Part shown: positions 6,525 to 24,649 of the stretch, piece by piece
Position numbering within the stretch: position 1 is the first letter of the stretch
How the letters are laid out: each line of letters opens with the position of its first letter
NCBI RefSeq assembly: GCF_027625475.1
Contig: NZ_CP115174.1
Coordinates: 1,302,001-1,366,000 of the forward strand
Origin: Sphingomonas abietis
Lineage (GTDB): Bacteria; Pseudomonadota; Alphaproteobacteria; Sphingomonadales; Sphingomonadaceae
Length of the DNA stretch: 64,000 bases
Direction: 5' to 3'
Program-made: the position numbers and the translations under genes
Notes under the pieces: model-generated
Database searches by the model: none
What the model saw: the letters and a program-made list of their open reading frames with translations, nothing else
Told to the model about the DNA's origin: nothing

Positions 6525-6568
6525 CCAGCATGTCAGCCACCCTTCCATTTCGTTTTCAAGGAGTTCCC

Positions 6569-7684
6569 ATGTCGAACGCCTCCGAATTCCTCTGGTATAT
6601 CCCCAATCAGATCGAGGGAGGGCATCGCGGCGATATCAGCGACGCCGATCCGGCGGGCCTCGAGACCCTGATGCGTCAGGCGGAGGCTCTGGAGCAGCAT
6701 GGCTGGAAGGGCGCGCTGATCGGCACCGGCTGGGGCCGCCCCGATACGTTCACGGTCGCGACGGCGTTGGCGGCGCGGACCAGGACGTTCGAGCCCCTCA
6801 TCGCGATTCGGCCCGGTTACTGGCGGCCGGCCAATTTCGCGTCGGCGGCGGCGACACTGGATCGACTGAGTGGTGGGCGGGTCCGCATCAACATCGTCTC
6901 GGGGCAGGACAATCTCGCCGCCTATGGCGACAGTGAGGGAGACCAGGCGCACCGCTATGGCCGCACGAAGGACTTCATGCGGCTCGTCCGCCGGCTCTGG
7001 ACGGAGGAGGACGTGACCTTCGAGACCGAGCATTTCCGTGTTGCGGGATCGACCGTCTCGCCCCGGATCATAGCGCGCGGCGATCGCCTTCATCCGAAGC
7101 TGTATTTCGGCGGTGCGTCCGAAGCCGCCGAGCGCGTGGCGGCGACCGAAGCGGACGTGCAGCTTTTCTGGGGCGAGCCGCTCGACGGCGTCGCCGACCG
7201 TATCGCGCGGTTGAGGCAGCTCAGCCGCGATCTCGATCGCGACCTGCCGCCGCTGGAATTCGGCCTGCGGATCACGACTTTGGTGCGCGACACGACCGAG
7301 CAGGCATGGGCCGACGCCGAGGCCAAGGTGGAGGAGATGGCCAGGGCGCAGAGCCTCCCGGACCAGCATCGGCGTGCGCCGGCGGTGGGGCAACAACGGC
7401 TGCTGGATCTCCATGCCCGCGGCGAGGTGCTGGACGACAATCTCTATACCGCGCCGGGCCGCTACGGCGGCGGCGGTGCCGGGACCACATGGCTGGTCGG
7501 CTCGGCCGCCGATGTCGCCAGCTCGCTACGCAAATATCGCGACCTCGGCATCAGCCAGTTCGTATTGTCCGACACGCCATATCTGTCGGAGATCGCGCGG
7601 CAGGGCGACCAATTGCTGCCGCTGCTGCGCGACGAACCGCGATCGACGGTAGAGCGCCTGTTCGCCGCCGACAGCATCGCCTGA
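6569..7684 (+). CDS. ssuD: LLM-class FMNH2-dependent alkanesulfonate monooxygenase
   Basis: A 371-residue luciferase-like monooxygenase. The N terminus (EFLWYIPNQIEGGHRGD), the barrel motif GRVRINIVSGQDNLAAYGD, HRYGRTKDFMRLVRRLW and LHPKLYFGGASEAAERVAA match the SsuD/alkanesulfonate monooxygenase group. Such enzymes split the C-S bond of sulfonates with FMNH2 and O2, releasing sulfite and an aldehyde. The start is ATG 6569 with AAGGAG nine bases upstream rather than the in-frame ATG 6530. Its exact substrate cannot be read from the sequence; dibenzothiophene-sulfone-type or methanesulfonate-type relatives are alternatives. It follows a flavin-reductase-like gene and precedes remnants of sulfite- and taurine-processing genes. 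Confidence 0.78.
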   Translation: MSNASEFLWYIPNQIEGGHRGDISDADPAGLETLMRQAEALEQHGWKGALIGTGWGRPDTFTVATALAARTRTFEPLIAIRPGYWRPANFASAAATLDRLSGGRVRINIVSGQDNLAAYGDSEGDQAHRYGRTKDFMRLVRRLWTEEDVTFETEHFRVAGSTVSPRIIARGDRLHPKLYFGGASEAAERVAATEADVQLFWGEPLDGVADRIARLRQLSRDLDRDLPPLEFGLRITTLVRDTTEQAWADAEAKVEEMARAQSLPDQHRRAPAVGQQRLLDLHARGEVLDDNLYTAPGRYGGGGAGTTWLVGSAADVASSLRKYRDLGISQFVLSDTPYLSEIARQGDQLLPLLRDEPRSTVERLFAADSIA

Positions 7685-7705
7685 TCGTCCGGCGCGGGAA
7701 GCCCG

Positions 7706-7978
7706 ATGATGGAAGATGCCCCCGAGCGCGAAGAGCATGTCGCCGGTGGTGGACTGCTTCATCGGCGTGCATTGCTGTTCGCAGGTGCGGCCTCGGCCGG
7801 CGGATGGGCGACCGGTCTTCGTGCCACGAACGCGCCGGCGTCGATGCTGGAACCCGGCATGCCTCTTTCGGGCTATGGGGTGCGGGCGAAATCGAGCGAG
7901 GCGATCCAGCGGATCGTGCCGGACCTCGCCTTTCCGGGCTCCGGATCGTCGCGGCGGACGCGCGGCTGGACCGCTTGA
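7706..7978 (+). pseudogene. N-terminal remnant of a SoxC-like sulfite dehydrogenase
   Basis: Ninety codons resemble the start of molybdopterin sulfite dehydrogenases (SoxC type): GGGLLHRRALLFAGAASAGG is a twin-arginine-like signal, followed by MLEPGMPLSGYGVRAKSSE and FPGSGSSR. Intact SoxC proteins continue for more than 300 residues with the Moco domain. Here the frame ends at TGA 7976-7978, and no Moco-domain sequence is found in any frame downstream. The gene is therefore truncated. Its likely former job was oxidising sulfite released by the monooxygenase just upstream. Confidence 0.65.
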
Positions 7979-8305
7979 GTCTGTCCCGGATCGTGATGCC
8001 GAATCGCGGCGGCTTCGTCAGCCTCGAACACCAGCAGTTCGACGGGAATATCAAGCGTGTGAAACCCCCGAAAGCCACCGGAGAGTGAGGCGGCAGACGG
8101 TCTTCTCCGTGTCGTGCGGGGGGGGCCGCTAGCCATCGAACATCGAGCAGATGGGTGCTTCGGGCAGGCGGGCACCTGCGTGCGGCAAAGATTAGCTTGT
8201 CCACCCCGAATGGAAAATCTCTACCAGTCCGATAGGCATTAACTAGGCTGGGGCCGATCGGAGCGTGAACCCGCTCTTGCCATGAGGAAGCGATAAGTAA
8301 CGGTA
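7979..8305 (+). other. Decayed spacer between two gene remnants
   Basis: About 330 bases without an intact gene. A frame ending at 8088 carries RIVMPNRGGFVSLEHQ, which I could not place. A run of eight G follows at about 8119-8126. The only clear element is the palindromic operator at 8219-8237. Confidence 0.45.
8219..8237 (+). promoter_or_regulatory. Shared CTA-N9-TAG operator, copy 1
   Basis: CTCTA-CCAGTCCGA-TAGGC with flanks AAT on the left and ATT on the right (AATCTCTA...TAGGCATT), an imperfect palindrome with the T-N11-A spacing of LysR-type binding sites. It stands in front of the degraded TauD-like gene, the amidotransferase and serine acetyltransferase 1. Confidence 0.6.
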
Positions 8306-8419
8306 ATGGCTTCTCGTTTCCATCGACTGCCAGCGTGCGCCCGCGCCGACGCGCCGCCGGCGATGTGCAGCAAAGGCCGTGCCGATATCGCCGACCAGAG
8401 CGAACCCGACGAAGGCGCC

Positions 8420-8760
8420 GATCGTTATCGGGCGGAATTTATCCCGACACTGATCGAGGCGGTATATTCTTTGATACGCGTCCATCCCGAAACCGGCGAA
8501 CGCCCGCTCGTGCCGGATAGCGTCTGCCAGGCCTTCGCCGAGCTTGGCGCCGTCGAGCCAGGGCGGCTCGACAACATCATTCAGGCCGCCATCGTCCGGC
8601 TGGAAAACGGCATGCGCCGGCGCGACGGTGACGTGGCGATCCGGCACGATCGCGCCACCGCGCCTGACCCGATCGATGATGATCGTGATCGGCGCCATGT
8701 GGTGCGCGGCGTGACCGTCCGCGGCAACGTGCCGGTTGGCATCGACAGTCGGTGTTCCCG
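8420..8760 (+). pseudogene. C-terminal remnant of a TauD/TfdA-family dioxygenase
   Basis: Within a frame open from 8306 to 8803, residues from about 8430 read YSLIRVHPETGERPLV, then RRRDGDVAIRHDRATAPDPI and RGVTVRGNVPVG. They follow the last third of TauD/TfdA 2-oxoglutarate dioxygenases (RTHPETGR..., W..GDVA.WDNRATQHYA, RR.T.RGD.PVG). The distal iron-ligand His of the RATQHYA motif is gone and the HxD half of the iron site is absent. The 2-oxoglutarate-binding Arg near the end is kept. This is best read as a decayed taurine- or sulfonate-dioxygenase gene. Confidence 0.65.
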
Positions 8761-8790
8761 CCGGGTCACCCTGGGCGCGCTACCGGAATT

Positions 8791-9567
8791 GTGCGTCGCG
8801 TGACCCTGGCAGGCGCCCCGACGGCACCGGGCCGGACGAAGCCTCTGGTCGGCGTTTTGGCCAGCAACCGGACGCTCGACGGCCGGCGGACGCAAGCCGT
8901 CGCTTCGCGCTTCGTCGTACCCTTGACCGACATCGCCGGAGTGACGGTGCTGATCGTGCCGGCCATCGCCGACGCGGTCGATCCGGTCGCGTTGTCCGCG
9001 ATCCTCGATGGATTGCTGCTGCCAGGCTGCTGCTCGAACGTGGCGGTATCGCGCTATCGCGCAGGCGCCGCGGTGCCATGCGACGACGCGGGCCGGGACG
9101 ACGTCGCGCTGCGACTGGCCGACGCGATGATCGGGGCAGGGCGGCCCGTCTTCGGTATCTGTCGCGGGATGCAGGAACTCAACGTGCTGTTCGGGGGCAC
9201 CCTGTCGGACGTGCCGGGCGAGACCGGCCATTATCGCGACGGTGCCGAAGACGATGTGCCCGCCCTGTTCGACCATCATCACGATATCGACATAGCCGAA
9301 GGCGGTATGCTGGCGGCCGCGATCGGCGCCGGGCGCCATCGCGTGAACTCGGTCCATCGCCAGGGGATCAACCGCCTGGGCGCGGGTTTGTCGATCGAGG
9401 CGCGCGCGCCGGATGATCTCGTCGAAGCGGTCTCGGCGAGACCGTGCGGTGCGCCGGTGCTGGGCGTCCAATGGCATCCGGAATGGGACGTCGACCAGAG
9501 CCCGGCGGGCCGCGCGTTTTTCGAATTGCTGGCGCGAGCCGTTCGCGGCGATCCACTCACCGTCTGA
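8791..9567 (+). CDS. Class I glutamine amidotransferase, gamma-glutamyl-GABA hydrolase (PuuD)-like
   Basis: About 258 residues with the full triad of class I glutamine amidotransferases of the peptidase C26/PuuD type. The nucleophile Cys is in VFGICRGMQELNVLFGGTL at about 125-143, and the catalytic His and Glu are in GVQWHPEWD near the C terminus. HRQGINRLG also fits PuuD-like hydrolases of gamma-glutamyl amides. The start is uncertain: GTG 8791 or 8800 avoids the overlap with the TauD remnant, whereas an in-frame start at 8752 exists; none has a clear ribosome site. It sits 15 bp before serine acetyltransferase 1. The context suggests release of an amino-acid sulfur source from a gamma-glutamyl adduct, but this is inference. 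Confidence 0.75.
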   Translation: MRRVTLAGAPTAPGRTKPLVGVLASNRTLDGRRTQAVASRFVVPLTDIAGVTVLIVPAIADAVDPVALSAILDGLLLPGCCSNVAVSRYRAGAAVPCDDAGRDDVALRLADAMIGAGRPVFGICRGMQELNVLFGGTLSDVPGETGHYRDGAEDDVPALFDHHHDIDIAEGGMLAAAIGAGRHRVNSVHRQGINRLGAGLSIEARAPDDLVEAVSARPCGAPVLGVQWHPEWDVDQSPAGRAFFELLARAVRGDPLTV

Positions 9568-9582
9568 CAGGAAGGACATACC

Positions 9583-10575
9583 ATGCCATCACCCTGGATC
9601 GAGGACGAGGTCGCGATACCGCCGGGCGCCCCCAGCTGGGATATCGATGCGCTGACGGGGGGCTTGCGGCAGGCGCGCGACGATTGGCGACGCGCTCATC
9701 GCCGCGATGTCGCCCGCGAACGGGTGGGCTTCCCGTCACGCGCTCGTCTGGAGGCGATCATTGCCCTGCTCGCCGGCGCGCTGTTTCCCCTCCGGCTGGG
9801 GCCGAGCACGGTGAACCCGGAGAACGAGGATCGCTTTGTCGCGCAGACGCTGGACACGGTGCTGGTCCAGCTACGCTGGCAGATCACCCTGGAACTGGGT
9901 TATTCGCAATCGGCGCCATCGCAAGGGGCGATCGAGCAGCGCGCCGCGCGAATCTCGCAGGCTTTCGCCGCACAGCTGCCCGATCTCCGTCGCTTGCTCG
10001 ATCAGGATGTCGAAGCCGCCTATGCGGGCGATCCTGCCGCGCGGAGCGTCGACGAGGTGCTGCTCTGCTATCCCAGCGTCACCGCCCTCATCCATCACCG
10101 CATCGCCCATGCCCTCTACGAACTGGACGTGCCGATCATCGCGCGGATCATCGCCGAGGTCGCGCATTCGGCGACTGCGATCGATATCCATCCGGGAGCC
10201 CGGATCGGAAAGAGCTTTTTCGTCGACCATGGCAGCGGCGTGGTGATCGGCGAGACGGCCATCATCGGCGACCGGGTGCGGCTCTACCAGGCGGTGACGC
10301 TCGGCGCGCGGAGCTTCCCCACGGAAGAGAGCGGCGGGCTGAAAAAGGGTCTCGAACGTCACCCGATCGTCGAGGACGATGTCGTGATCTATGCGGGCGC
10401 GACGATTCTGGGGCGGGTGACGATCGGGCGTGGCGCGGTGATCGGCGGCAATGTCTGGCTGACCCAGAGCGTGCCGGCGGGCAGCATCGTCCATCAGGCG
10501 TCGGCCGAGAGCGATCGCCCGGGGCAGGGTGATCTGCCGAGCGGCCACCTCAATCTGGCGGCCCTCGCGATCTGA
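9583..10575 (+). CDS. cysE: Serine O-acetyltransferase 1
   Basis: A 330-residue protein making O-acetylserine from serine and acetyl-CoA, the first step of cysteine synthesis. The N-terminal helical domain (PSRARLEAIIALLAGALFPL, VDEVLLCYPSVTALIHHRIA) is followed by the left-handed beta-helix: ATAIDIHPGARIGKSFFVDH, GVVIGETAIIGDRVRLYQAV, HPIVEDDVVIYAGATILG. The catalytic His of DIHPGA and of FVDHGSG are present. It begins 15 bp after the amidotransferase with AGGAAGG upstream. It is paralogous to a second serine acetyltransferase at 27.8 kb (both share the ALFPLR.GP helix and the beta-helix). Its length exceeds that of E. coli CysE and matches the EpsC-like long form. Confidence 0.9.
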   Translation: MPSPWIEDEVAIPPGAPSWDIDALTGGLRQARDDWRRAHRRDVARERVGFPSRARLEAIIALLAGALFPLRLGPSTVNPENEDRFVAQTLDTVLVQLRWQITLELGYSQSAPSQGAIEQRAARISQAFAAQLPDLRRLLDQDVEAAYAGDPAARSVDEVLLCYPSVTALIHHRIAHALYELDVPIIARIIAEVAHSATAIDIHPGARIGKSFFVDHGSGVVIGETAIIGDRVRLYQAVTLGARSFPTEESGGLKKGLERHPIVEDDVVIYAGATILGRVTIGRGAVIGGNVWLTQSVPAGSIVHQASAESDRPGQGDLPSGHLNLAALAI

Positions 10576-12275: not shown

Positions 12276-13088
12276 TCACTTCAATTCCGGATATCCTCGC
12301 CGCGTCGAATGGGCTGCCAGTTTTTCAAGCGCGTCGTATCGCGACTGCCGCAGCACATCGACACCGGCGATCAGCAGCGCATCGACGCTCGCGCCATTGG
12401 CGTCATCACGGATGGCCTGCCGGACGGCCCTTCGCAAAATGCGCAGTCCGGCGTCGGACGTCGCCGCCGATGTCACCAGCGGCAGGCCGGGCGAGGGCGG
12501 GCTCCAGGCCAAGGTTCTCAATCGGCGGGTGGATAGCGGATCCTCGCGCTCGAGATGCGCGAAGGTCACGCAATCGATCGCGGCGATGTCCGCCTCGCCC
12601 GCCGCTACGGCTCTTATGCTCGCATGATGCGACCCGGTGATGAGGACCGATCCGAAGAATCGGCCATCGGTCGCCAGCGGCGCCGCCATGGTGCGGAAGA
12701 GATTCATGCCGGTGTTCGAATTCTCGGCGTTGACCGCTGCCCGTCGGCCCCTCAATTCGGGGAGGGCAACGGCAGCCTCGTCCCGGCGGACGACGATGCG
12801 GCTGCGATGCGAGGCGCCCTCGCAGCCGGCCGCCTTGTAGTGGGGGGTCGCGACATATCGCAAACGGCCGCGCCATTGCGTCGCGAGCGGATAGCCGCAG
12901 GCCTGGGCGAGCAGCAGATTCGGGTCGTCCCAAATCTCTTCGAGCGATCGGGTCCGGTCGAGCCCCGCGGGTACATCGTCGAGCCCGGCCGCACGCAGAT
13001 GATGCGCGATGGCAGACCAGAGCGCATCATTGGCGCTTTGCAGCCCGGGGGCATCGTACATTGCGAGCGACGCGACATGACCCGTCAT
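12276..13088 (-). CDS. PhnD-like substrate-binding-fold protein without signal peptide
   Basis: A 270-residue protein with the fold of phosphate/phosphonate ABC binding proteins (PhnD family): ASLAMYDAPGLQSANDALW at the start, RSIVVRRDEA-like strand, LRGRRAAVNAENSNTGMNLF, SHHASIRAVAAGEADIAAID. These are the PhnD hallmarks of ligand-loop and hinge. There is no signal peptide or lipobox, so it may be cytoplasmic or a sensor. No cognate permease or ATPase is adjacent. Its ATG overlaps the stop of the upstream desaturase gene (13085-13088), so both are made together. The ligand is unknown. Confidence 0.7.
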   Translation of the reverse strand: MTGHVASLAMYDAPGLQSANDALWSAIAHHLRAAGLDDVPAGLDRTRSLEEIWDDPNLLLAQACGYPLATQWRGRLRYVATPHYKAAGCEGASHRSRIVVRRDEAAVALPELRGRRAAVNAENSNTGMNLFRTMAAPLATDGRFFGSVLITGSHHASIRAVAAGEADIAAIDCVTFAHLEREDPLSTRRLRTLAWSPPSPGLPLVTSAATSDAGLRILRRAVRQAIRDDANGASVDALLIAGVDVLRQSRYDALEKLAAHSTRRGYPELK

Positions 13089-14008
13089 CGAGGTGCCGTT
13101 TCCGCCAAGAAGCGGGGATGGATCAGCGCATCATGAGCGCGCAAGCCGTAACGCCGCGCGACGTCGCCATAGCCGCGATAGACGAGGCCGCCATTGGCAT
13201 GGACGATGGCCGCACGGTTCCGACGGTAGAAGGCCGGTATCCGATACCAGGGCAACGCCGGAGCCGCATGGTGGACGGCATGGAGGTTGTTGTGGAGGAA
13301 CAGCAGCGACAGCGGCCCGGCTCGCTCGACGATCGCGACGCGATGGCCCGGCGCGGTCGCGGCACGATGCTCCGCGAACGATCGCAGCAGCGTGAGCGCG
13401 CTGCCCGGATAGACGAAAGCGAGCAGATAAAGACCGACGCCGAGGTGGCAGATCGAAAGCCACGTCAATATGAGCGCGACGCCGATCATATGCGGCGCCC
13501 AATCGCGCACAGCCTCGGACGGCGTCCGCCATGCCCGTATGGCCTGCGCGCCGAGGAAGCCCGCGATCATGATCGCCGGCCCGAGCAGCAGCCGGCCGAG
13601 CAATGGCGCCTGGACGGTCGCAACGGCACGCCGAAGCGTCTCGCGCCACCCGGTCGCAGGCAACAGATAATGGGATTCGGGATCTTCGCGGGGATCGGTC
13701 GTCTCGCTGGTGGCGTGATGCGCAAGGTGATCGCGACGATAGCATGTGTAGGGAAGCCACAGCGACAGCGGAACGGCACCGATCAGGCTGTTGAGCCTTG
13801 GCCACGGGGTCGGATGGCCATGGATCGTCTCATGCTGGAGCGAACTGTGCCACGCGACGAACCATCCGCCCGCCACGACGAGCAACCCGGTCGGCAACGC
13901 TGCGTGGAACCAGGTGACCGCCATCCATCCGCCATAGACCACCATGGTCAGGGCCATGGTCGGCCATTCGATCGTCATCCGGCGTTTCGAGCGCGAGTCG
14001 GTGTTCAA
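13085..14008 (-). CDS. Membrane fatty acid desaturase/hydroxylase family protein
   Basis: A 307-residue integral membrane di-iron enzyme. Three His boxes are visible: HSSLQHETIHGHP at about 54-66, RRDHLAHHATSE at about 92-103 and FLHNNLHAVHHAAPALPW at about 238-255. Hydrophobic segments lie between them (GLLVVAGGWFVAW, LLGPAIMIAGFLGAQAI, MIGVALILTWLSICHLGVGL). The best ribosome site (GGAGG, ten bases away) favours TTG 14008 over ATG 13978. The family introduces double bonds or hydroxyls into lipids. Its substrate here is unknown, and the linkage to a PhnD-like protein and a sulfur-type operator is unusual. A perfect copy of the operator lies 123 bp upstream. Confidence 0.82.
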   Translation of the reverse strand: MNTDSRSKRRMTIEWPTMALTMVVYGGWMAVTWFHAALPTGLLVVAGGWFVAWHSSLQHETIHGHPTPWPRLNSLIGAVPLSLWLPYTCYRRDHLAHHATSETTDPREDPESHYLLPATGWRETLRRAVATVQAPLLGRLLLGPAIMIAGFLGAQAIRAWRTPSEAVRDWAPHMIGVALILTWLSICHLGVGLYLLAFVYPGSALTLLRSFAEHRAATAPGHRVAIVERAGPLSLLFLHNNLHAVHHAAPALPWYRIPAFYRRNRAAIVHANGGLVYRGYGDVARRYGLRAHDALIHPRFLAETAPR

Positions 14009-14293: not shown

Positions 14294-15787
14294 CTACACC
14301 CCTGAGGCGCGCGGAACCGCCTGCGCGGCCATGAATTCGGCCAGCTGCGAGACTTCGGGGCCGAGCGGTCGATCTTCGCCAAGCGGCGCGCATTGGGATC
14401 GCACCACGGCCTGGATTGCGCGCATATCCCCACCGAGCCGGTCAGCGACGCCGCGCAGCTCGATCGCCTGGGCCGCGACGATGAGCTCGATCGCGACCAG
14501 ATGGCGCAGATGCGCGATGCCGTCGCTCACCTTGGCGACGACCGCAGGCGCCATCGAGGCCTGGTCCTCGATCCCGTCCGACACCGCCATCACGCCGAGC
14601 GAAATGGGCTGGGCAAGGTGGCGGATCAGGGCCTCGGACGCCGCGATCGTCTTCTGTAGCGCGCCGAAGCCTGTCCAGGCGGGGCCGAGCGGCGTCAGAT
14701 AGCGCGGCAATTCCGAAACGGCGGCCGACATCATCTTCAACGTGCGGTGCGCGGTGCCGGTCGCGACATGGGTCAAGGCCTGACCAAGCCTCTCCCAGCT
14801 CAGCACGAAGGCGGTCAGGTCAAAATTGCCCTGGGACAGCATCACCCCGTCATCCGCCAGGACGACCGGATTGTCGCCGGAGCTTGCGAGTTCGATCCGG
14901 ACCGCCTCACGGGCTTCCCGGATGGCGTGGAGCAGCGCGCCCAGCACCTGGGGCACGCAGCGGTAGCTCAGCGGATCCTGCAGCCGCCGCGCGGCGCCGG
15001 GCGCCCATAGAGCGCTGCCGGCCAGCAGGGCCCGCAGCCGCGCGCCAGCCTCGATCTGGCCGAAGGCGGGACGCGCGGCGAGGGCGCGGGCATCGAGGAT
15101 CGAGAGATTGGCGCGGAAGCCTTCGAGGGCCAGCGCGGTGGCCACGAGCGACCAGTCGAACAGACGCTCGACATCGGCAAGCACCAAGCACGCCAGGCCC
15201 ACCGAATAGCTGTTGGCGGCCACCAGCGCATGGCCGTCCCTGGCGGCGAGGGGGAGGGGATCGAGGCCCGCCGCGCGTAGCGCCTGGTCTGCCGGCAGCA
15301 GCTCGCCATCGCGCTCGACCATGCCATATCCCATCAGCCCGCGGGCAAGGTGGGCGAGCTGGGCGAGATCGCCGGCGCCGATCGAACCCAGGGCTGGAAC
15401 GGCGGGATGAATGCCGGCATTGAGCGCGTCGAGCAGCGCGGCACAGGCCGGCCACGAAACTCCGCTGCCGCCGGCGATCATTCCGGAAATCCGCGCCGCC
15501 ATCATGGCTCTCACGGTCTCGCGCGGCAGCAAGGGGCCGACGCCGACCGAGCGGCCATCGGCGACGCGACGCTGGAATGCCGCCTGCTCTTCCGCGTCGA
15601 GCCGCGTATCGGCGTTCGCGCCGAGCGCCGTCGTCAAACCATAGACCGGCAGTTGTCGCGCCGCATAATCCTCGACCACGGCATGCGCGGCCTGGATGCG
15701 TCCACGCGCGGCATCCGACAGGACGAGCGTGGCGCCCGTGCGGGCGATGGCGGCGACATCGTCCGGCGAGAGCGGCGAATCCGTCAT
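14294..15787 (-). CDS. Histidine ammonia-lyase-fold protein lacking the MIO serine
   Basis: A 497-residue protein of the aromatic amino acid lyase family. Landmarks: VYGLTTALGAN (Tyr loop) at about 48-58, QDPLSYRCVPQVLGAL, ASSGDNPVV, SQGNFDL, and VSDGIEDQASMAP (catalytic Glu). The core motif, normally GSxGASGDLAPLAH, reads GSIGAGDLAQLAH at residues 134-146. The Ser of the Ala-Ser-Gly triad that cyclises to MIO is missing; I re-read the DNA at 15365-15388 to confirm. The usual NG after the EGLAL motif is also altered (DGHALVAANSYSVG). I chose ATG 15787, which has GACGAGG upstream; ATG 15802 is an alternative. It ends the transporter operon. An MIO-independent lyase, such as an ergothionase-type enzyme, is inferred. 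Confidence 0.75.
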   Translation of the reverse strand: MTDSPLSPDDVAAIARTGATLVLSDAARGRIQAAHAVVEDYAARQLPVYGLTTALGANADTRLDAEEQAAFQRRVADGRSVGVGPLLPRETVRAMMAARISGMIAGGSGVSWPACAALLDALNAGIHPAVPALGSIGAGDLAQLAHLARGLMGYGMVERDGELLPADQALRAAGLDPLPLAARDGHALVAANSYSVGLACLVLADVERLFDWSLVATALALEGFRANLSILDARALAARPAFGQIEAGARLRALLAGSALWAPGAARRLQDPLSYRCVPQVLGALLHAIREAREAVRIELASSGDNPVVLADDGVMLSQGNFDLTAFVLSWERLGQALTHVATGTAHRTLKMMSAAVSELPRYLTPLGPAWTGFGALQKTIAASEALIRHLAQPISLGVMAVSDGIEDQASMAPAVVAKVSDGIAHLRHLVAIELIVAAQAIELRGVADRLGGDMRAIQAVVRSQCAPLGEDRPLGPEVSQLAEFMAAQAVPRASGV

Positions 15788-15926: not shown

Positions 15927-16937
15927 TCAGGCGAAGCGGAGGCGCTGGCCGATGCCCAGGCGCGCACCTTTTTCGAGCATCGCATGGCCAAGGGCGATGT
16001 CGGACAGCGACAGGCCGCGGTGCCAGAACAGGATCGTCTCGTCGTCGCTCTGGCGGCCGGGTTTCAGCCCGGCCACAATCTCGCCGAGCTCGGCATGCAG
16101 CGTCGCCTCCGAAAGCTTGCCCGTTTCGACATCGGCCCGCAGGCTGCCGAACTTGCCGCCCTTGCACTGCCCCCAGTCGTCGACGACGATCTTCGCCATG
16201 ATGTCGGTGAGGGAGAGCTCGACGGCGCTCATCGTCCCATAGGGAATGACGAGCGCACCGGGCTTGATCCAGTCGGTGCGCAGCAACGGCGTCGGCTCGT
16301 GGAGGCGCGATGCCTCGACGACGATATCCGCGCCCTCGACGCAGCTCTGCCAGTCGGTCGTCGCGCGAACCGGCTTGCCAAGATCGCGGCTCAACCGGGC
16401 CGCGAAGCCGTCGCGGCTTTCCGGGCGGCGCGAATGGACGCGGATCTCGTCGAAATCGAACAGACGATCGAGCAGGCGCACATTCCAGTAGGCAGTGCCG
16501 CGGGCGCCGATATGGCCCAAGATCTTCGATCCCTTGCGGGCGAGATATTTGGCGCCGAGCGCCGAGACGGCGCCGGTGCGCATGTCGGTGATCCCGCTCG
16601 CGTCGAGCATCGCGCGCGGCACGCCGGTCGCGGGATCGAACAGCATCAGCATCGCGAGTTCGGAGGGCAGGCCTTGCTGATAATTGTCGACGAAATCGCC
16701 GACCACCTTGACCCCGGCAAGGTCGATCGGGGCGCGGAGCGCGCCGCGCAGCACATTGAAATGGCCGTTGGAAACCTTGGGTTCGAGATGGACCCGAGGC
16801 TCGATCACCGCTTCGCCGCGTCCCTGTGCGGCAAGCCCCTGTTCGATCGCGAGGAGAAGTTCGTCATCGTCGATCGCCAGCGCCTCGATATCGAAGCGGT
16901 TGAGATAGGTGATGTAGATCGGCGGCGTCTCGGCCAT
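15927..16937 (-). CDS. Ornithine cyclodeaminase/mu-crystallin family protein
   Basis: A 336-residue NAD(P)-binding protein. The first half has the dimer and substrate domain (EPRVHLEPKVSNGHFNVLRG, GLPSELAMLMLFDPATGVPR, DASGITDMRTGAVSALGAKY). The Rossmann fold follows with KILGHIGARGTAYWNVRLLD, a dinucleotide loop of form GxxGxG-like. GADIVVEAS and MSAVELSLTDI are typical of the family. Members deaminate ornithine, reduce cyclic ketimines or act on N-substituted amino acids; the substrate here cannot be assigned. ATG 16937 is preferred over 16952 because GAGGACC lies just upstream. It follows the sulfotransferase gene by 36 bp and precedes the HAL-like gene by 139 bp. Confidence 0.8.
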   Translation of the reverse strand: MAETPPIYITYLNRFDIEALAIDDDELLLAIEQGLAAQGRGEAVIEPRVHLEPKVSNGHFNVLRGALRAPIDLAGVKVVGDFVDNYQQGLPSELAMLMLFDPATGVPRAMLDASGITDMRTGAVSALGAKYLARKGSKILGHIGARGTAYWNVRLLDRLFDFDEIRVHSRRPESRDGFAARLSRDLGKPVRATTDWQSCVEGADIVVEASRLHEPTPLLRTDWIKPGALVIPYGTMSAVELSLTDIMAKIVVDDWGQCKGGKFGSLRADVETGKLSEATLHAELGEIVAGLKPGRQSDDETILFWHRGLSLSDIALGHAMLEKGARLGIGQRLRFA

Positions 16938-16973
16938 ATCGGTCCTCGTCATATTGATCGTCTGTTTGATGGT

Positions 16974-19031
16974 CTATGTCCGCCAGGCGTCGGCGGCCTC
17001 GCCCAGCGCCGAACGGAGATCGGCCAGCCATGGCTCGAACGCCCGCCACTGATCGAGCCCGTCGCGGAAGATCGGCTGGCGGACCTGCTCGCTGCTGGGC
17101 GTCCGCACGGCGCGGCGGTTCTGATGGAAGTCGAGACAGGCCGGGTCGAACGCCAGACCGCAATGCTCGAGCAGGCGGCGGACCTGGGCGTCGAGATCGT
17201 CGATCACATCCTCGTGGACGACCTTGAGCACGCGCCCGGGCAGCACCGCCTCCCAGTGCCGCATCAGATCGAGATAGGTGCGGTAATAGCGCGCGATGTC
17301 GTCGATCGAGTAAGTGAACTCCTGCCCGCGCGCGAACAGCTGCTTCAGGTTGGAGAAGCAGCACGCCATCGGGCTGCGGCGAACGTCGATGATCTTCGCG
17401 TTGGGCAGGATGAGATGGATGAGGCCGATATGCCGGAAATTGTTCGGCATCTTGTCGACGAAAAAAGGGCGGCCGAGCACGCGATGCGCCCGTGTGCCGG
17501 CAAGATAGGCGTCGCCCAGTGCGCGGGCCCGTTCGCGGTCGAGATCGGCGAGGACGGCCGGATAGCGCGGACGATCGAGATCGGGATCGCGGCCCTGCAA
17601 TTCCTGCACGATCCGCTGGATATCGGGCAATTCCTGGGTGCCTTCGACGTGCGGATGGCTGGCAAGGATCTGTTCGATCAGCGTGCTGCCTGAGCGCGGC
17701 AGGCCGACGACGAAGATGGGATCCGGGGCCGGCGCGCCGAAATCGGCTCTGGCGGCGAAGAAGGCGGGCGTGCCCACGCGTTTCTGCTCGGCCGTGTTGG
17801 TTTCGAGGATGTCCGGACGATAATGGCTGGACGCGCGCTGCAGGGCGTTGCCCTGCGCATAATGCGTCCATGCATCGGCAGTGTCGCCGACATCCTCGAG
17901 CGCCTTGCCGAGCGCGAAGTTGAGATGGACACGATCTACGTCGCTGGTGCCGGGTGCCGCCTGCGCCGCCCGCATCGCGGCGAGATCGTCGGCCGGGAAG
18001 CGATAGGTTTTGAGGTTGGCGAGGCTCCACCAGCCGTCGCCGAAATCCGGGCGCAAGGTCACGGCGGTTCGGTAGGCGGCAATGGCATCGGGCAGACGAC
18101 CGACCGTCTTCAGCGCGTGCCCCCGCCAGAGCTCGATATCGGCGAGGTGCGCCCGCAGGCCGGCATCGTCCCCGGGGTCGTCCGGCAGCGCGGCGCGGAT
18201 CTGCTCATAGAGCCGGATCGCCTCGTCGGTCTGGCCGAGCCCGACGGCGATCGTCGCGGCCATCTCACGCAAGGCGAGATTGTCGCCATCCTCCGCCAGC
18301 AGCGGTGCGAGTACCGCGCCGGCCTCGGCGAATTTGTGCCGGGCGAGCAGCGTCTGGGCATATTCGTGGCGCGCGGCGCGGTGATCGGGCACCATCGCGA
18401 GCACCGCCGCGTAGAGGATCTCGGCGTCGTCCAGCACGTCCTGCGACAGGCCGATCTTCGCCAGGAGCCGCATCGCCTCGGGATGATCGCCATGGTCGAG
18501 CAGGAAGCGCCGCATGAGCGCCTCGGCGCCCACCCCATCCCCGTCGGCGAACAGCGAGGTCGCCTGCACGATCGGATAGGGCAGCGATTGCAGCGCCAAT
18601 TCCTGCGACCTGGCCTCCTGCGCGCCGGCGTCGTCGCCGACCATCCGGGAGAGGCTGGCCAGCATGTGCCAGCTCTGCGCCAGCGCCGGATTGATGCTGA
18701 CGGCGGCACGGAATGCCGCGATCGCCGCTGGCGCGTCACGGCGGACGACGTGGCAGAGGCCGCGCTCCTGATGGATCAGACTGAAGCCCGGCTGATCCGC
18801 CACGAGCCGGTCGAGGATCGCCAGCGCGCCTTCGATGTCGCCGAGGAAGCGGAGGCTGGTCGCGCGGAGCAGCAGCAGATTCCGATCCGCCGGGAATCGC
18901 TGGAGGGCGACGATGGCTTCGATGGCGGCCCGGCGATGATCGCCGCCGTGCTGGATCGCGCGGAGCCGAGCGATACATGCGCTCCGCGTCTCGTCGGTCG
19001 CCGCGGGCAGGGGCGGTTCAGTATCGGTCAT
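16974..19031 (-). CDS. TPR-repeat sulfotransferase
   Basis: A 685-residue fusion. Residues about 20-400 are tetratricopeptide repeats (RLVADQPGFSLIHQERGLCH, LRAHLADIELWRGHALKTVG, GDGWWSLANLKTYRFPADDL). Residues about 440-685 are a sulfotransferase domain: FVVGLPRSGSTLIEQILASH is the PAPS 5'-phosphosulfate loop and DVRRSPMACCFSNLKQLF the 3'-phosphate-binding region. There is no signal peptide. It may transfer sulfo groups to a small molecule or protein. Within a sulfur-scavenging operon it could instead act in reverse or on a sulfated intermediate, which is speculation. It lies 81 bp after the ATPase gene in the same direction. Confidence 0.85.
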   Translation of the reverse strand: MTDTEPPLPAATDETRSACIARLRAIQHGGDHRRAAIEAIVALQRFPADRNLLLLRATSLRFLGDIEGALAILDRLVADQPGFSLIHQERGLCHVVRRDAPAAIAAFRAAVSINPALAQSWHMLASLSRMVGDDAGAQEARSQELALQSLPYPIVQATSLFADGDGVGAEALMRRFLLDHGDHPEAMRLLAKIGLSQDVLDDAEILYAAVLAMVPDHRAARHEYAQTLLARHKFAEAGAVLAPLLAEDGDNLALREMAATIAVGLGQTDEAIRLYEQIRAALPDDPGDDAGLRAHLADIELWRGHALKTVGRLPDAIAAYRTAVTLRPDFGDGWWSLANLKTYRFPADDLAAMRAAQAAPGTSDVDRVHLNFALGKALEDVGDTADAWTHYAQGNALQRASSHYRPDILETNTAEQKRVGTPAFFAARADFGAPAPDPIFVVGLPRSGSTLIEQILASHPHVEGTQELPDIQRIVQELQGRDPDLDRPRYPAVLADLDRERARALGDAYLAGTRAHRVLGRPFFVDKMPNNFRHIGLIHLILPNAKIIDVRRSPMACCFSNLKQLFARGQEFTYSIDDIARYYRTYLDLMRHWEAVLPGRVLKVVHEDVIDDLDAQVRRLLEHCGLAFDPACLDFHQNRRAVRTPSSEQVRQPIFRDGLDQWRAFEPWLADLRSALGEAADAWRT

Positions 19032-19112: not shown

Positions 19113-19931
19113 TCATCGTGCCGAGGCGGCGGCCTGCGCCACGAACCGCGCGACATAATCGGACGACGGCGCGCTCAGCAAGGTGGCGGGTGGCCCCGCC
19201 TGCTCGACCCGGCCATCGCGCATCACGACGATGTGCGCGCCCAGGCGCAGCGCCTCGCGGATATCATGAGTGACGAAGACGATGGTCTTGCCGAGCTCGG
19301 CCTGAAGATCGAGCAGCTGCGCCTGGAGTTCGTCGCGGATCAGCGGATCGAGCGCGCTGAACGCCTCGTCCATCAGCAGCACATCGGGATCGCAGGCGAG
19401 CGCGCGAGCCAGTCCGACGCGCTGGCGCATCCCGCCCGACAGGGCATCGGGATAGGCGCGCTCATAGCCGCCGAGGCCGAGCTTCGCCAGCCATGCGGCG
19501 GCCCGCGCCTCGGCATCGCCGCGCTTCACGCCATGCAGCGCCAGGCCGAAGGCCGCATTCTGAAGAACCGTGCGATGCGGCAGCAGCGCGAAATTCTGGA
19601 ACACCATGGCGACATGGGTGCGGCGGAAGGCGCGCAGTGCCGGCAGGCCGAGCCGGGTGATATCCTCGCCATCGAAGCGGATCGCGCCAGATGATGGGTC
19701 GATCAATCGGATCAGGCAACGCAGCAGCGTCGATTTGCCCGAGCCGGACAGTCCCATGATCACGGAGATGGCGTCGCTGGGCAGCACCAGATCGATGTCG
19801 CGCAGTGCCACCGTGCAGCCCGTGCGTTCGAGGATGGCGGCCTTGTCCAGCCCTTGCGCGACGAGGACCTGCGCCGCCTTGCCATGGCCACCATAAAGTT
19901 TGTTGACGCCGGTGAGTGCGATCTCAGCCAC
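19113..19931 (-). CDS. Quaternary-amine type ABC transporter ATPase
   Basis: A 272-residue ATPase of the ProV/OpuCA/EgtV group. Walker A GLSGSGKSTLLRCLIRLIDP, Q-loop MVFQNFALLPHRTVLQNAAF, signature DALSGGMRQRVGLARAL, Walker B DVLLMDEAFSALDP and switch His VTHD are intact. There are no C-terminal CBS domains, unlike osmoregulated ProV. Its GTG start overlaps the end of the fused permease/binding-protein gene (19924-19931), showing translational coupling. It energises uptake of a betaine-like compound. The absence of CBS domains argues for a nutrient rather than an osmoprotection role. Confidence 0.88.
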   Translation of the reverse strand: MAEIALTGVNKLYGGHGKAAQVLVAQGLDKAAILERTGCTVALRDIDLVLPSDAISVIMGLSGSGKSTLLRCLIRLIDPSSGAIRFDGEDITRLGLPALRAFRRTHVAMVFQNFALLPHRTVLQNAAFGLALHGVKRGDAEARAAAWLAKLGLGGYERAYPDALSGGMRQRVGLARALACDPDVLLMDEAFSALDPLIRDELQAQLLDLQAELGKTIVFVTHDIREALRLGAHIVVMRDGRVEQAGPPATLLSAPSSDYVARFVAQAAASAR

Positions 19932-21939
19932 GGCGCGTCCTCCGGTCGGCGACCAGCGCCTGGGTCGTTCGATCGAGCGCCATCGCCAGCACGACGATGG
20001 CGAGGCCGGCCTCGAACCCCTTGCCGACGTCGAGCGACTGGATGCCGTTCAACACCTCCTCGCCGAGCCCGCGCGCGCCGATCATCGAGGCCGTCACCAC
20101 CATGGCCAGGGCCATCATGATCATCTGGTTGAGGCCGGCGAGGATGCTGTCGCGTGCCAGCGGCATCTCGACATGGATCAGCGTCTGCCACGGCGTCGCG
20201 CCGAAGGCCGCCGCCGCCTCGCGTACCTCCGGATCGGCGTTGCGGATGCCGAGCGCGGTCAGGCGGATCAGCGGCGGCGTCGCGTAGATCACCATCGCCA
20301 GGATCGCCGGCGCCTTTCCGAGGCCCAGCAGCATCAGGGCCGGGATCAGATACACGAAGCCCGGCATCGCCTGCATGAAATCGAGGATGGGGGGAACCAC
20401 CGATCGGGCGAGCCGCGACTTGGCGGTGACGATGCCGAGCGGCAGGCCGATGGCCAGTGCGATCAGCGACGATACCAGCATGAGTGTCAGCGTCTGGAGC
20501 ATCTGGTCCCACAGGCCGAGCACGCCGATGATGAAGAAGGCGGCGGCGACCATCAGGGGAGGGACCGCACGACGCGCGCCGAGCAAGGTGACGCCGGAGA
20601 AGAGCGCGATGATCAGCCACCAGGGAATGACGCGCAGCGCCGCGTCGATCGACGAGGTCAGCGCGGTGAGAGTCCCCGCGATTCGCCGGAACGTGCCCCC
20701 CGAATTGGTGACGAGGCTCGCCACCCAGCGATTGACCGGCGCGCGGATCGACACTTCCCAGCCGGCTGGGAACGCGCCCGATGCTGCGGCCGTATCGGCG
20801 TCGCCATGCTGCAGGCTATGGTCGAGACGGGCGGCCGCCTCCGCCGACAGCCATTGCCGCCGAAGCCCGGGGTTCGCCCGCAGGAACAGCAGGGCCTGGG
20901 CGGCCGGGGAGCGCTGGTGAGCCTGTGCGTCGGCCAGTTCCGCATTCAGCACGCTGGCCGGAATGCTGATCTTCTCGAACAGCGCGCGCAGCGCCGGCGC
21001 GCGGGCGGCGAAGGCTGCGTTAAGGCCGGCCGAAAGCAGCGCCGGAGGCCAGCTACAGGCGGTGCGATGCTGTCCGTCGGGATTTACGAGGTCGGCCCAG
21101 CAGCCGGCTTCGTAGGGTGCCTCGCTGAGCCGGAACAGCCGGAACCGGCCGGCGATGGTGCTGGGCGAATAGCCGTAGAAGACGATCGGTCGATGCTGGA
21201 CCATCGCCGCGACGATGGCGGCATCCATCGCGGCGCCGGATCCGGGGCGAAAGTCGACATAGCGGTCGTTCAGGCCATAGGCGTGAAGCTTCGCGGTGTT
21301 GACGCGTTCGCATGTCCAACCCGACGGACAATTGAGGAAACGTGCCTTGGTCGGTTGCTCGGGATCGCGGAAAAGCGCCGCATAGCGCGGATCGGCCAAC
21401 TGCTGGACCCGGGCCAGGCCGGCGGCCGGGGCATTCGGGCCATGCACCAGGGCGTCGGGTACATAGATGCCTTCCTGGCCACCCGTCACGGTCTGGCCGA
21501 CCGCGATGACCTGGCCACGGGCGCTCGCGGCATTCCAGATCGGGCTGCGTCCCGCCCACTCCTCGGCGATGACCTCGATATCGCCGGTGGCGACCGCCTG
21601 TTCGAGCGTGACGGTGGTGCCGGGCGTGGTCGTCGTCACGCAGCCATAGCCGCGTTCGAGAATGGCGCGATCGAGCGCGGTCAGGAACGCACCGCTGTCC
21701 CAGTCGAGGCCGGCGAATGCGATCGGCGTGGGGACCGGGCATGCGGTCGCCGCGGCCCGCGCCGGCGCAGATATCCAGAATGCCGCCATCAGCAGCAGCG
21801 GTGCGATGAGGGATGACAGGCGCAGAACGGGCGTCGGTCGCGGGCCCGTCGTCGGGCTCACCATCCGGGGGATCGCGATGCGGAATCGCGGTGCGGCCGG
21901 ATCATCGGGCCGCACCGCGTCCTTCGGGGCACTGGTCAT
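19924..21939 (-). CDS. ABC transporter fusion: N-terminal OpuAC/ProX-type binding domain, C-terminal permease
   Basis: A 671-residue fusion. After an N-terminal membrane anchor or signal (about 42-62) comes a glycine-betaine-type binding domain to about residue 370 (FAGLDWDSGAFLTALDRAI, DIEVIAEEWAGRSPIWN, with Trp residues typical of the quaternary-ammonium site). Residues about 420-665 are the permease with several membrane segments and the EAA-like loop (EVREAAAAFGATPWQTLIHV). Binding-protein/permease fusions occur in OpuBC-like and in EgtU ergothioneine transporters, but in those, as I recall, the permease comes first. The gene begins 10 bp after the TonB receptor gene. Substrate: a quaternary amine, not identified. 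Confidence 0.85.
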   Translation of the reverse strand: MTSAPKDAVRPDDPAAPRFRIAIPRMVSPTTGPRPTPVLRLSSLIAPLLLMAAFWISAPARAAATACPVPTPIAFAGLDWDSGAFLTALDRAILERGYGCVTTTTPGTTVTLEQAVATGDIEVIAEEWAGRSPIWNAASARGQVIAVGQTVTGGQEGIYVPDALVHGPNAPAAGLARVQQLADPRYAALFRDPEQPTKARFLNCPSGWTCERVNTAKLHAYGLNDRYVDFRPGSGAAMDAAIVAAMVQHRPIVFYGYSPSTIAGRFRLFRLSEAPYEAGCWADLVNPDGQHRTACSWPPALLSAGLNAAFAARAPALRALFEKISIPASVLNAELADAQAHQRSPAAQALLFLRANPGLRRQWLSAEAAARLDHSLQHGDADTAAASGAFPAGWEVSIRAPVNRWVASLVTNSGGTFRRIAGTLTALTSSIDAALRVIPWWLIIALFSGVTLLGARRAVPPLMVAAAFFIIGVLGLWDQMLQTLTLMLVSSLIALAIGLPLGIVTAKSRLARSVVPPILDFMQAMPGFVYLIPALMLLGLGKAPAILAMVIYATPPLIRLTALGIRNADPEVREAAAAFGATPWQTLIHVEMPLARDSILAGLNQMIMMALAMVVTASMIGARGLGEEVLNGIQSLDVGKGFEAGLAIVVLAMALDRTTQALVADRRTRRG

Positions 21940-21949: not shown

Positions 21950-24544
21950 TCAGAAGCTGACGCCCACCTTCACGCCATAGGTGAGCGGCCGAACCGGGAT
22001 CTCCTGCTTGATGCGCTCGGTCGAGGAGGTAAAGGTGCTGGCATGGCTGTTGGCGAGATTGTCGCCGAAGAGCGAGATCGTCCAATTGTCGCGGCGGAAG
22101 CCGATGGTCGCGTCGAGCAGCGCGTAGCCGGGCATACGGTAGCGCAGCAGCGCGGTCGACGGGATCGTGACGCCCTCGCCCGAGGGGTAGGTCGACGGCT
22201 CATTGTACATCGCGCTGGTATAGGTCACGCCTCCCGAGACGAACCAGTTGAGACTATTCTGGCCCTGCCATTCATATCGGGCGCGCAGATTGCCCTGGAA
22301 ACGGGGGCTCAACGGCAGGCGCGAGCCGACATTCCCGAACGGGCTGACCGCAGTGCTGATGCACTGGCCGAACGTCGAAGAGCCCGGATAATCGGACACG
22401 AAGCAGGGCGAACTGACCTGCTTGCTGTCGTTATAGGTGGCGCCGCCCTGGATCGACAGGCCGGCATAGGGCCGAACCGTGACCTGCGCCTCGGCGCCCT
22501 TGACGTGGAAATTGGCGCCGTTCGTGACGAAGGCCAGGTTGCCGAAGCCCTCGGGATTGAAGAACTGCAACTGCATGTTCTTCCAGACCATATAATAAGC
22601 TGAAAGGTTGAGCGTGACCGTGCGGTCGAAGAGGTCGGTCTTGAGGCCGACTTCCCAATTGGTCAGGCTGTCCGGCTTGTAGCCGTTGGGGCGGATATAT
22701 TGGGGCGTGCCGTCCGCATCGGGCAGGATCGGCTTGGGCCCGCGATTGAAACCGCCCGGGCGGAAGCCCTGGCTGAACAACCCGTAGATCATCGTGCCGG
22801 GTCTCGGCTTCCAGGTCAGCACGCCCCGGCTCTTGAAGCCGTGATAGGTGACGTGATCATTGTTGGCGCCGAGATCGACGTCATAGCCCGGGAGCGTACA
22901 GACGAGCACGTTGAAGCAGGCGCCGGGCGAGGTGCCGAACTGCGACCCGACCTCATATTCCTTGTAATTATAGTAGCGCGTGCCGCCGGTCAGCGTGAGC
23001 GTCGGGGTGATGTCCCAATCGACCGACCCGAAGAAGGCATATTGACGATATCCGCGCTGGAGGTCGTCGCCGAACGTGGTGCCCGCCGGCTCGAAGCCGG
23101 GCTCGTTCGCGGCGGCGCCCGGCAGGGTCTGGTTGAGGCCGTTGCAGCCGGTGCCGGCGGCAATCAACGCGCTCGTGCAGGTCGGAATGGTCCCATAGAA
23201 ATAGCGCTGCACATCGTCGATCTCGAACTTCTCGTAATAGGCGCCGGCGAGCAGGCGAAGCGGCTTGTCCTCGGGCGACGAGATGCGAAGCTCTTCGGTG
23301 TGATGCCTGTTGTGGATGTCGTCATGCCAATAGGCGACCGGCGAATAGCAATGGGTCGCCCCCGTTCCAAAGCCGGTGGCGCTGCCGGTGCATTGATAAT
23401 ACATGCCGCCGGCGGTGCGGGAGTAGTTGGAATAATCCTGCTGCTGCTCGACATGGCGATCCATATAGGCGCCGGTATAGACGAGCTTCCAGTCGCCGAT
23501 CTTGCCGTTCACGGTCCACGCCGTGTTCTCGAACGTGTCCTTGTTGTAGCTGGGCACGAAGGTCGTGGTCTCGAGCGACCCCAGTTTCTGGAAATCGGAG
23601 CCGGACGGGAAGGATGAGAATGTCCCCTCGGCATCGAGGCGCTGATAGCTTTCGGTGACGAGCAGGTTCCAGTCGGAATTGATATCCCAGAGCGCCTCGA
23701 TGCGACCGCCGGTATAGTCGATCGGGTTATAGTCCTTCTTGGCGAGCGCATCGTTATTGTAGACGCCGTTGTTCGCCTGGTTGGTCGGGCTGGGCACGAA
23801 GCCATAGGCCTGCGAACCGCTATCGGAGGCGAGGCGCGTGAAGGCACTCGCGACATTGTCGATATAGCCGCCCTCGTGATTTTCGTAGAAGGTCGCGCGG
23901 ATCGCCACGCTGTCACGGATCACCGGCAGGTTGACGGTCCCGGTGAACGAGCCGTTGGGCGCTCCCCCTGCGGTGCCGCCGAAACTGCCTTCGACGTGCC
24001 CGGAGAATTGGTCGATGACCGGCTTGTTGGTAATGTAGCGCACGGCGCCCGCCTCGGCGCCACCACCGAACAGCGTGCCCTGAGGCCCCTCGAGAACCTC
24101 GATGCGCTCAAGATCCGCGGCATAGACGTCGACATTGCGCCCCGGAAACTGCATCGACTGGTCGTCCAGGTACAGCGCCACGTTCGGGAAGGTCGAAATT
24201 CCGCCCGAGCCCTGGGTCGCGGCGACACCGGCGGAGAGGCCCCGCATGAAGATGAGGCCCTGGCCCGGCCCCTGCGAACCCAGCGTGACGTTGGGTGTGT
24301 ATTTGATCAGGTCGTTGAAGGTGTTGACGTTGAGCTGGGACAGCGTCTTGCCGGACAGCGCCTGCAGCGTCATCGGCACGGTCTGGATGGACTGATCGCG
24401 ACGTTGCGCGGTGACGATGATGTCACCCCCATCGGCCGCGGCCGGAGCCGCGCTCGCTGGCGCGTCGTCCGCCCGGGCAGGCATGATGCAGGCAGCGGCA
24501 ACGGTGCAGGCCAACGACAGCCGCACCCGGCGCAAGGATGTCAT
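21950..24544 (-). CDS. TonB-dependent receptor heading the betaine-type uptake operon
   Basis: An 864-residue outer-membrane receptor. Signal peptide about 1-25 (ACTVAAACIMPARA). Plug domain about 45-160 with DIIVTAQRRDQSIQTVPMTL, SGGISTFPNVALYLDDQ, RIEVLEGPQGTLFGGGAEAG and YITNKP. The barrel ends in PLTYGVKVGVSF with the terminal Phe. ATG 24544 has GGGGGA upstream; the longer frame begins at a TTG. It is the first gene of an operon that continues through the fused transporter, so it probably brings the same solute across the outer membrane. A perfect shared operator lies 105 bp upstream. Confidence 0.9.
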   Translation of the reverse strand: MTSLRRVRLSLACTVAAACIMPARADDAPASAAPAAADGGDIIVTAQRRDQSIQTVPMTLQALSGKTLSQLNVNTFNDLIKYTPNVTLGSQGPGQGLIFMRGLSAGVAATQGSGGISTFPNVALYLDDQSMQFPGRNVDVYAADLERIEVLEGPQGTLFGGGAEAGAVRYITNKPVIDQFSGHVEGSFGGTAGGAPNGSFTGTVNLPVIRDSVAIRATFYENHEGGYIDNVASAFTRLASDSGSQAYGFVPSPTNQANNGVYNNDALAKKDYNPIDYTGGRIEALWDINSDWNLLVTESYQRLDAEGTFSSFPSGSDFQKLGSLETTTFVPSYNKDTFENTAWTVNGKIGDWKLVYTGAYMDRHVEQQQDYSNYSRTAGGMYYQCTGSATGFGTGATHCYSPVAYWHDDIHNRHHTEELRISSPEDKPLRLLAGAYYEKFEIDDVQRYFYGTIPTCTSALIAAGTGCNGLNQTLPGAAANEPGFEPAGTTFGDDLQRGYRQYAFFGSVDWDITPTLTLTGGTRYYNYKEYEVGSQFGTSPGACFNVLVCTLPGYDVDLGANNDHVTYHGFKSRGVLTWKPRPGTMIYGLFSQGFRPGGFNRGPKPILPDADGTPQYIRPNGYKPDSLTNWEVGLKTDLFDRTVTLNLSAYYMVWKNMQLQFFNPEGFGNLAFVTNGANFHVKGAEAQVTVRPYAGLSIQGGATYNDSKQVSSPCFVSDYPGSSTFGQCISTAVSPFGNVGSRLPLSPRFQGNLRARYEWQGQNSLNWFVSGGVTYTSAMYNEPSTYPSGEGVTIPSTALLRYRMPGYALLDATIGFRRDNWTISLFGDNLANSHASTFTSSTERIKQEIPVRPLTYGVKVGVSF

Positions 24545-24649
24545 CAATGGAAAATCCCCCAAGATTTTGGCCGGTGTCCCTGCAGGCCGGCCGGATCATT
24601 TTATATCCTGGCACAACAGCGGCGTAGCCCGCCATCCCCGTGCGTTAAT

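Follow-up and report, generated by a model that had tools for sequence, protein, structure and literature searches.

A MIO-less lyase of the histidine ammonia-lyase fold from Sphingomonas abietis with a recurrent OCD-family partner: a possible route for sulfur-bearing histidine betaines

The described systems closest to the lyase analysed herein are the histidine ammonia-lyase (HAL) HutH, which shares with it the fold, the carboxylate Arg, and the Gln-Asp-Pro, Phe and Glu residues, and the ergothionase of T. denticola (PDB 6s7j/6s7q), which shares with it both the HAL fold and a one-residue deletion at the MIO site. A passage of PMC13405746 describes an ergothionase that lacks MIO and is active, an ergothionase has been reported for Agrobacterium radiobacter in passages of the same source and of PMC7653990, and a catabolic pathway for ergothioneine sulfonate (Yan et al., 2022, ACS Catal) is cited, for A. 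radiobacter, in portions of PMC13405746 and PMC9967237. In our literature search, the ergothioneine sulfonate enzymes were traced only as this citation of Yan et al. (2022); the present lyase possibly acts on the same substrate, and the catabolism described there may cover its relatives.

The lyase gene is located in a stretch of 64,000 nucleotides of S. abietis DNA, hereafter called the window:

14294..15787, minus strand: predicted MIO-less HAL-fold lyase, an uninterrupted ORF of 497 aa with ATG at 15787 and stop at 14294
15350..15388, minus strand: motif GSIGAGDLAQLAH of the lyase (residues 134-146), aligned with the HAL counterpart GSVGASGDLAPLAH

In a Pfam-type profile search, the protein matched PF00221 at 435 bits as a full-length aromatic amino acid lyase, and with 350 bits it scored below the curated cutoff of the NCBIfam hutH model (539). 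The MIO site reads GSIGA-GD in the lyase vs. GSVGASGD in HAL; alignment with P. putida HAL showed that the Ala-Ser-Gly triad, from which members of HutH form MIO, is one residue short in the lyase, with no Ser left. These results bear out the preliminary description of this DNA, which had read the triad as Ala-Gly within an intact frame and the Tyr, Gln-Asp-Pro, Asn-Phe and Glu motifs as kept, while the position it gave for the motif (15365-15388) lies inside the motif and spans only the first eight residues. The lyase retains Tyr49, Gln270-Asp271-Pro272, Arg276, Asn321-Phe322 and Glu407, and Tyr49, Arg276, Gln270-Asp271, Asn321-Phe322 and Glu407 were invariant across 50 aligned sequences. Further substitutions relative to HAL were His83 → Arg79, Asn195 → Ala190, Tyr280 → Leu273 and Val386 → Lys379. 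An AF2 model (pLDDT 89.4) had the HAL fold, with ergothionase 6s7j at Foldseek rank 1 and tied with HAL by Z. A separate, ASG-bearing HutH (C1:582867) is encoded elsewhere in the host genome, adjoined by HutI- and HutG-like ORFs (named by eye) and with HutU nearby.

The gap at the MIO site was found throughout the relatives. A search yielded 1113 homologues, of which 120 were listed, and after P0002, the window's own copy, was dropped, 119 were compared, the nearest being approximately 80% identical to the lyase. All 119 listed relatives share the gap (109 Ala-Ala, 10 Ala-Gly) and carry Lys for HAL Val386 and Leu for Tyr280, and 117 of them carry Arg for His83, the rest being one gap and one His. 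In addition, a scan of genome contigs yielded 193 relatives, the best 80 of which (42-65% identity) were used for the analysis of loci; these include Rhizobium, Mesorhizobium, Azospirillum, Inquilinus, Ancylobacter, Methylobacterium, Labrys and others, and the triad is absent from the lyase in all 80. Since the gap is common to the 119 listed relatives and the 80 best loci, the loss of the triad is a family trait, and a local sequencing error, to which close relatives with an intact triad were to have pointed according to the preliminary description, was ruled out. Many relatives carry the database name histidine ammonia-lyase, yet none of the 119 compared (of 1113 homologues) is able to form MIO.

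In the host's order, a HAL-like match at E ≤ 1e-60 was present in 85 of 396 genomes, and the ASG triad was intact in all 29 loci fetched. No orthologue of the lyase was found among the 395 other sampled genomes, where the best other match was 37% identical, and the best match in nine other genomes of the host's genus was at most 35% identical (E ≤ 1e-40). The lyase gene was likely gained horizontally in the host organism.

Other MIO-less proteins of this fold were encountered as well. Five rhizobial genomes examined encode two to four MIO-less HAL-fold proteins each, plus a true HutH; further types with GSxGY and GSIGCADIG motifs were seen at rhizobial loci (L215, L222, L224, L227-L230), and one such protein on S. 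meliloti pSymA (L196) has Ala where Lys is usual. Several MIO-less types are present in two R. rhizogenes genomes, and the A. radiobacter ergothionase therefore need not be of the window's type.

The best PDB sequence match of the lyase was ergothionase 6s7j (277 bits; HAL, 214 bits). Both have Lys in place of HAL Val386, a residue that we take to be catalytic in ergothionase, Leu in place of Tyr280, and the conserved Tyr/Arg/Glu (Tyr53, Arg283 and Glu414 positions). They differ, however, in that the lyase has Arg79 for His83, Ala for Glu142, Asp404 for Gly, and Thr-Thr for Asn56-Arg57. Among the 120 listed of 1826 homologues of the T. denticola ergothionase, the gap and His83 were found in all 120, Glu at 142 and Leu for Tyr280 each in 118, and Lys for Val386 in 115. 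In a quick maximum-likelihood tree of 64 rows, the lyase fell in a clade of 36 rows (SH-aLRT 98) that is separate from the clade of the T. denticola ergothionase (SH-aLRT 100). Grouping with true MIO lyases, which had been named in advance as counting against a MIO-free enzyme, was not seen, this split being weakly supported (70). Next to an ergothionase-side gene of Burkholderia arboris are genes for an amidohydrolase, a DUF917 protein and a thiourocanate hydratase, the last scoring 1050 bits (cutoff 930); the 25.5 kb of that locus contained no match to the ornithine-cyclodeaminase-family (OCD) protein described below. In contrast, the searches of the host genome found neither a thiourocanate hydratase route nor a DUF917 protein, its sole urocanase scoring as ordinary HutU, and the lyase has an OCD-like partner:

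15927..16952, minus strand: OCD/mu-crystallin-family protein with an NADP-type motif and altered catalytic positions (PF02423, 194 bits)

This gene is directly upstream of the lyase gene. What is new here is that an OCD-family protein is the most constant partner of the lyase: its orthologue (65-81% identity) was present in 69 of the 80 best loci (of 193), in 65 of these 69 within 1.5 kb and on the same strand, and it is more conserved than the lyase itself; two of the 11 loci without it are short stretches. No report of an OCD-family partner for such lyases was found in our literature search. Alanine dehydrogenase from Archaeoglobus (AlaDH, PDB 1omo) has in common with the partner the fold family, the Rossmann domain, and Lys65 and Arg108, the equivalents of which were kept in 88 of 88 OCD sequences, the window's included. 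The three AlaDH residues that we take to be catalytic, in contrast, were altered in all 88: Lys41 is replaced by Arg, Arg52 by Asn, and Asp219 by Met (84), Val (3) or Gln (1). The partner also differs in reading Ser-Arg-Arg after the second Rossmann strand (Arg175 in 87 of 88), which presumably indicates NADP, as it usually does. The pairing provides the lyase with a concrete partner, and from it a means of cleaving a carbon-sulfur bond of a ring can be predicted.

The co-occurrence of the two genes was assessed in a class sample of 385 genomes including the window's, with thresholds of E ≤ 1e-85 for the lyase and E ≤ 1e-110 for OCD. The lyase was present in 9 genomes and OCD in 27, and all 9 lyase genomes, the window's included, had OCD (p 1e-11). 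Of the 27 OCD genomes, 18 had no match to this lyase at the threshold of E ≤ 1e-85; ten of these encode a different HAL-fold protein that lacks an intact triad, in some cases a very divergent one, and in eight none was seen. Urocanase was found in 24 of the 27 OCD genomes, in one case as a fragment, vs. 75 of the 358 without OCD (Fisher p 1e-12, this and the preceding p value being uncorrected for lineage or genome size); the exceptions were G593, G684 and G746, the last of which has a urocanase piece at a contig edge.

The two genes belong to a longer same-strand run in the window:

21950..24562, minus strand: TonB-dependent outer-membrane receptor at the head of the run (PF00593 and PF07715)
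19924..21939, minus strand: OpuAC substrate-binding domain fused to a choline/betaine-type permease (PF04069 and PF00528)
19113..19931, minus strand: ATPase of a betaine/choline/proline-type ABC importer (NCBIfam proV, 298 bits, cutoff 327; choXWV ATPase, 288 bits, cutoff 484)
16974..19031, minus strand: TPR-sulfotransferase protein between the importer ATPase and OCD (PF13469, Sulfotransfer_3, 167 bits)
13085..14008, minus strand: desaturase-family protein, a recurrent neighbour (PF00487, 101 bits)
12276..13088, minus strand: protein of PhnD-like binding-protein fold, no signal peptide by eye (PF12974, 68 bits; nearest PDB entries ArrX/AioX)

As had been described, the run begins with a TonB receptor and a transporter of the quaternary-amine type. 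The lyase gene does not end the operon as claimed, since the desaturase-family and PhnD-like genes come after it on the same strand. The OpuAC-permease fusion scored 265 bits with the NCBIfam choXWV permease model (cutoff 363). EgtU, like this protein, is a binding domain fused to a permease. The EgtUV importer, as described in part of PMC9732360, is likewise an ABC importer with a binding domain of the quaternary-amine-binding kind; the window's domain differs in being N-terminal and in having glycine betaine/proline-binding proteins as its nearest PDB chains.

Outside the OCD-lyase pair, the window's run recurred in part among the 80 best loci (of 193). The TonB receptor had no match in them and the TPR-sulfotransferase no tblastn match at 1e-6. 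The window's PhnD-like gene had a tblastn match in 5 of the 80 (44% in L091), and with the Polaromonas PhnD-like protein as a query, a PhnD-like gene was found within 2.8 kb in 49 of the 80. PF00487 desaturase-family genes were repeatedly seen beside the lyase or OCD in several lineages: homologues of the window's gene in L086-L088 and L091 (50-52% identical), and homologues of an Azospirillum gene in L134, L144, L153, L156 and L160 (44-50% identical). Sulfur-related genes lie on both sides of the run (window 5460-10575 and 24848-28727), most of them below curated cutoffs. They include an SsuD-like monooxygenase (6530-7684, 240 bits, cutoff 510), a methionine-type ABC importer, a MetQ-like lipoprotein below cutoff, and genes of nitroreductase-like and serine acetyltransferase-like kind, among them one for an EpsC-type serine acetyltransferase (27819-28727); four of the genes rest on model scores and the others were named by eye.

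The neighbourhoods of the relatives were then compared within the same 80 best loci (of 193). In 23 of the 80, the lyase gene has a gene for an OsmF-type binding protein no more than 300 bp away, with full importers present in, e.g., L053, L067 and L198; these and the window's importer are different transporters for the same, betaine-type class of substrate. A HutC-type repressor was likewise encoded within 300 bp in 24 of the 80, and the one scored, that of L053, passed the NCBIfam HutC cutoff (279 vs. 220). A YeiH-like exporter was encoded within 4.6 kb of the lyase in 14 of the 80, all from related rhizobia (Rhizobium, Aminobacter and a Rhizobiales). Against the NCBIfam YeiH cutoff of 233, the exporter of Polaromonas passed with 344 and the two others scored (132 and 150) did not; the window has no YeiH, and one is encoded elsewhere in the host genome. 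YeiH/SuyZ exporters are tied, in a part of PMC11582611, to sulfite arising from sulfonate dissimilation. CoA-transferase, SDR and MaoC genes were found in 22, 25 and 25 of the 80, and no match to hutU, hutI, hutG or hutF in any.

Hut genes do adjoin OCD in three further lineages. In Paracoccus saliphilus, one stretch holds OCD, an exporter below the YeiH cutoff, hutF, hutI, hutH, hutG, hutU and a MIO-less lyase; in G746, a C-terminal piece of urocanase at a contig edge and HutD adjoin an importer, the lyase (45%) and OCD (86%); and in G480, HutU adjoins an OCD paralogue of 60% identity. The urocanases of G480 and P. saliphilus score as ordinary HutU, as does that of the window's genome. Polaromonas JS666 has LysR, YeiH, a MIO-less lyase, a TctC-type binding protein, OCD and PhnD-like genes. 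The Polaromonas and P. saliphilus lyases share only 31-33% identity with that of the window (P. saliphilus, 31%) and are nearer to ergothionase, and OCD therefore pairs with both lyase types. These two OCD-linked lyases retain His at HAL position 83, where Arg does not track the presence of OCD, which weakened Arg79 as a candidate mark of a sulfonate pocket.

The loss of the MIO triad, the fold, the clade, the OCD pairing with its altered residues, and the associations with importer, repressor, exporter and urocanase are the observations from which we interpret the locus. Judged from sequence, the lyase would be a HAL-fold enzyme that frees trimethylamine, independently of MIO, from a histidine betaine carrying sulfur (most likely ergothioneine sulfonate), and the OCD-family protein would yield urocanate and sulfite; we assign this reading a probability of roughly 0.38. 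The betaine, a putative substrate, would be taken up via the TonB receptor and then the OpuAC/permease/ATPase importer. The lyase would take the beta proton and expel trimethylamine, a presumed release, leaving a 2-substituted urocanate. Elimination without MIO would call for a group that leaves readily unaided, and the trimethylamine of a betaine would fit, as in ergothionase. The NADPH-type OCD-family protein would add hydride at C2 and release sulfite, a step that we infer, so that urocanate could proceed to the ordinary Hut route and sulfite could serve as a sulfur source. A sulfonated ring is suggested by the exporters encoded close to relatives and by the sulfur-related genes on either side of the window's run. 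The proposal is weakened because none of the 80 best loci (of 193) has hut genes and two of the three exporters scored below the cutoff; hut neighbourhoods were found only outside these 80 loci and with the looser matches given above (lyase 31% and 45%, OCD paralogue 60%). The 11 loci lacking OCD, the 18 OCD genomes lacking this lyase, the confinement of the 14 exporter loci to related rhizobia and the absence of YeiH from the window also count against it. Possible, though doubtful, is the wider proposal of a further ergothioneine-type route, in which a MIO-free lyase clade would free trimethylamine and an OCD protein devoid of amino-acid chemistry would cut the ring C-S bond with NADPH, urocanate passing to Hut and sulfite to assimilation after TonB-dependent uptake. 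If true, ergothioneine-type degradation in soil- and plant-associated bacteria would be wider than a survey with one ergothionase sequence suggests, as presented in part of PMC13405746.

The preliminary description had pointed to ergothionase and proposed a MIO-free enzyme of that type for a betaine of thiohistidine. The deletion, the shared Lys and Leu, the top rank of 6s7j and the importers uphold this proposal, and the position outside the ergothionase clade and the lack of thiourocanate hydratase and DUF917 in the genome do not. A strict ergothionase, which would convert ergothioneine to thiourocanate while the OCD-like protein frees sulfide or acts elsewhere, would also be in keeping with the OCD pairing of the ergothionase-nearer lyases in Polaromonas and P. 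saliphilus and with the enzyme reported for A. radiobacter in the passages mentioned at the outset. However, Arg79, Ala and Asp404 replace the ergothionase residues in the separate clade, and ergothioneine sulfonate suits both the OCD-like protein and the sulfite/sulfate-type exporters found close to relatives rather better than ergothioneine does, leaving a strict ergothionase fairly unlikely. Should the substrate be hercynine (histidine betaine) or another sulfur-free histidine betaine, urocanate would be made directly, in line with the HutC-type repressor, the betaine importers and the hut neighbourhoods of OCD in three lineages; such a substrate would, however, explain neither OCD as a conserved partner nor the YeiH-like exporters, and we regard it as quite unlikely.

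A betaine without an imidazole ring, e.g., of an aromatic amino acid, would give an acrylate to be processed via CoA-transferase, MaoC and SDR as in beta-oxidation. This fits the frequency of these genes and the lack of hut genes in the 80 best loci (of 193), the altered His83 position, and the tight array in which L053 and L198 combine them with the lyase. Nevertheless, a HutC-type regulator lies inside both arrays, OCD and urocanase co-occur across genomes, and no such array was found in the window's surroundings, so that we consider a non-imidazole betaine unlikely. An inactive or moonlighting HAL homologue would account for a triad that has no Ser and cannot form MIO, but is very unlikely given the residues invariant in the 50 aligned sequences and the active MIO-less ergothionase of PMC13405746, as covered in the passage cited. 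As for hypaphorine, tried as a candidate substrate, the literature search gave no relevant title.

On pAMI4 of Paracoccus aminophilus (L197, 9101-23267), a MIO-less lyase gene lies between a CoA-transferase/SDR/MaoC set and genes for six LLM flavin monooxygenases, with no OCD match in the 25.4 kb of that stretch; this set and the CoA-transferase, SDR and MaoC neighbours elsewhere suggest another fate for the lyase product. In Mesorhizobium (L092-L112, e.g., L098), the OCD-lyase pair was seen beside genes resembling those for rhizopine (moc) catabolism, named by eye and including a weak match to an inositol dehydrogenase model. Lastly, the 2.7 Mb genome G480 (L150, L151, L171, L188 and L192) contained nine HAL-like and seven urocanase matches, and is apparently specialised on histidine-like compounds.
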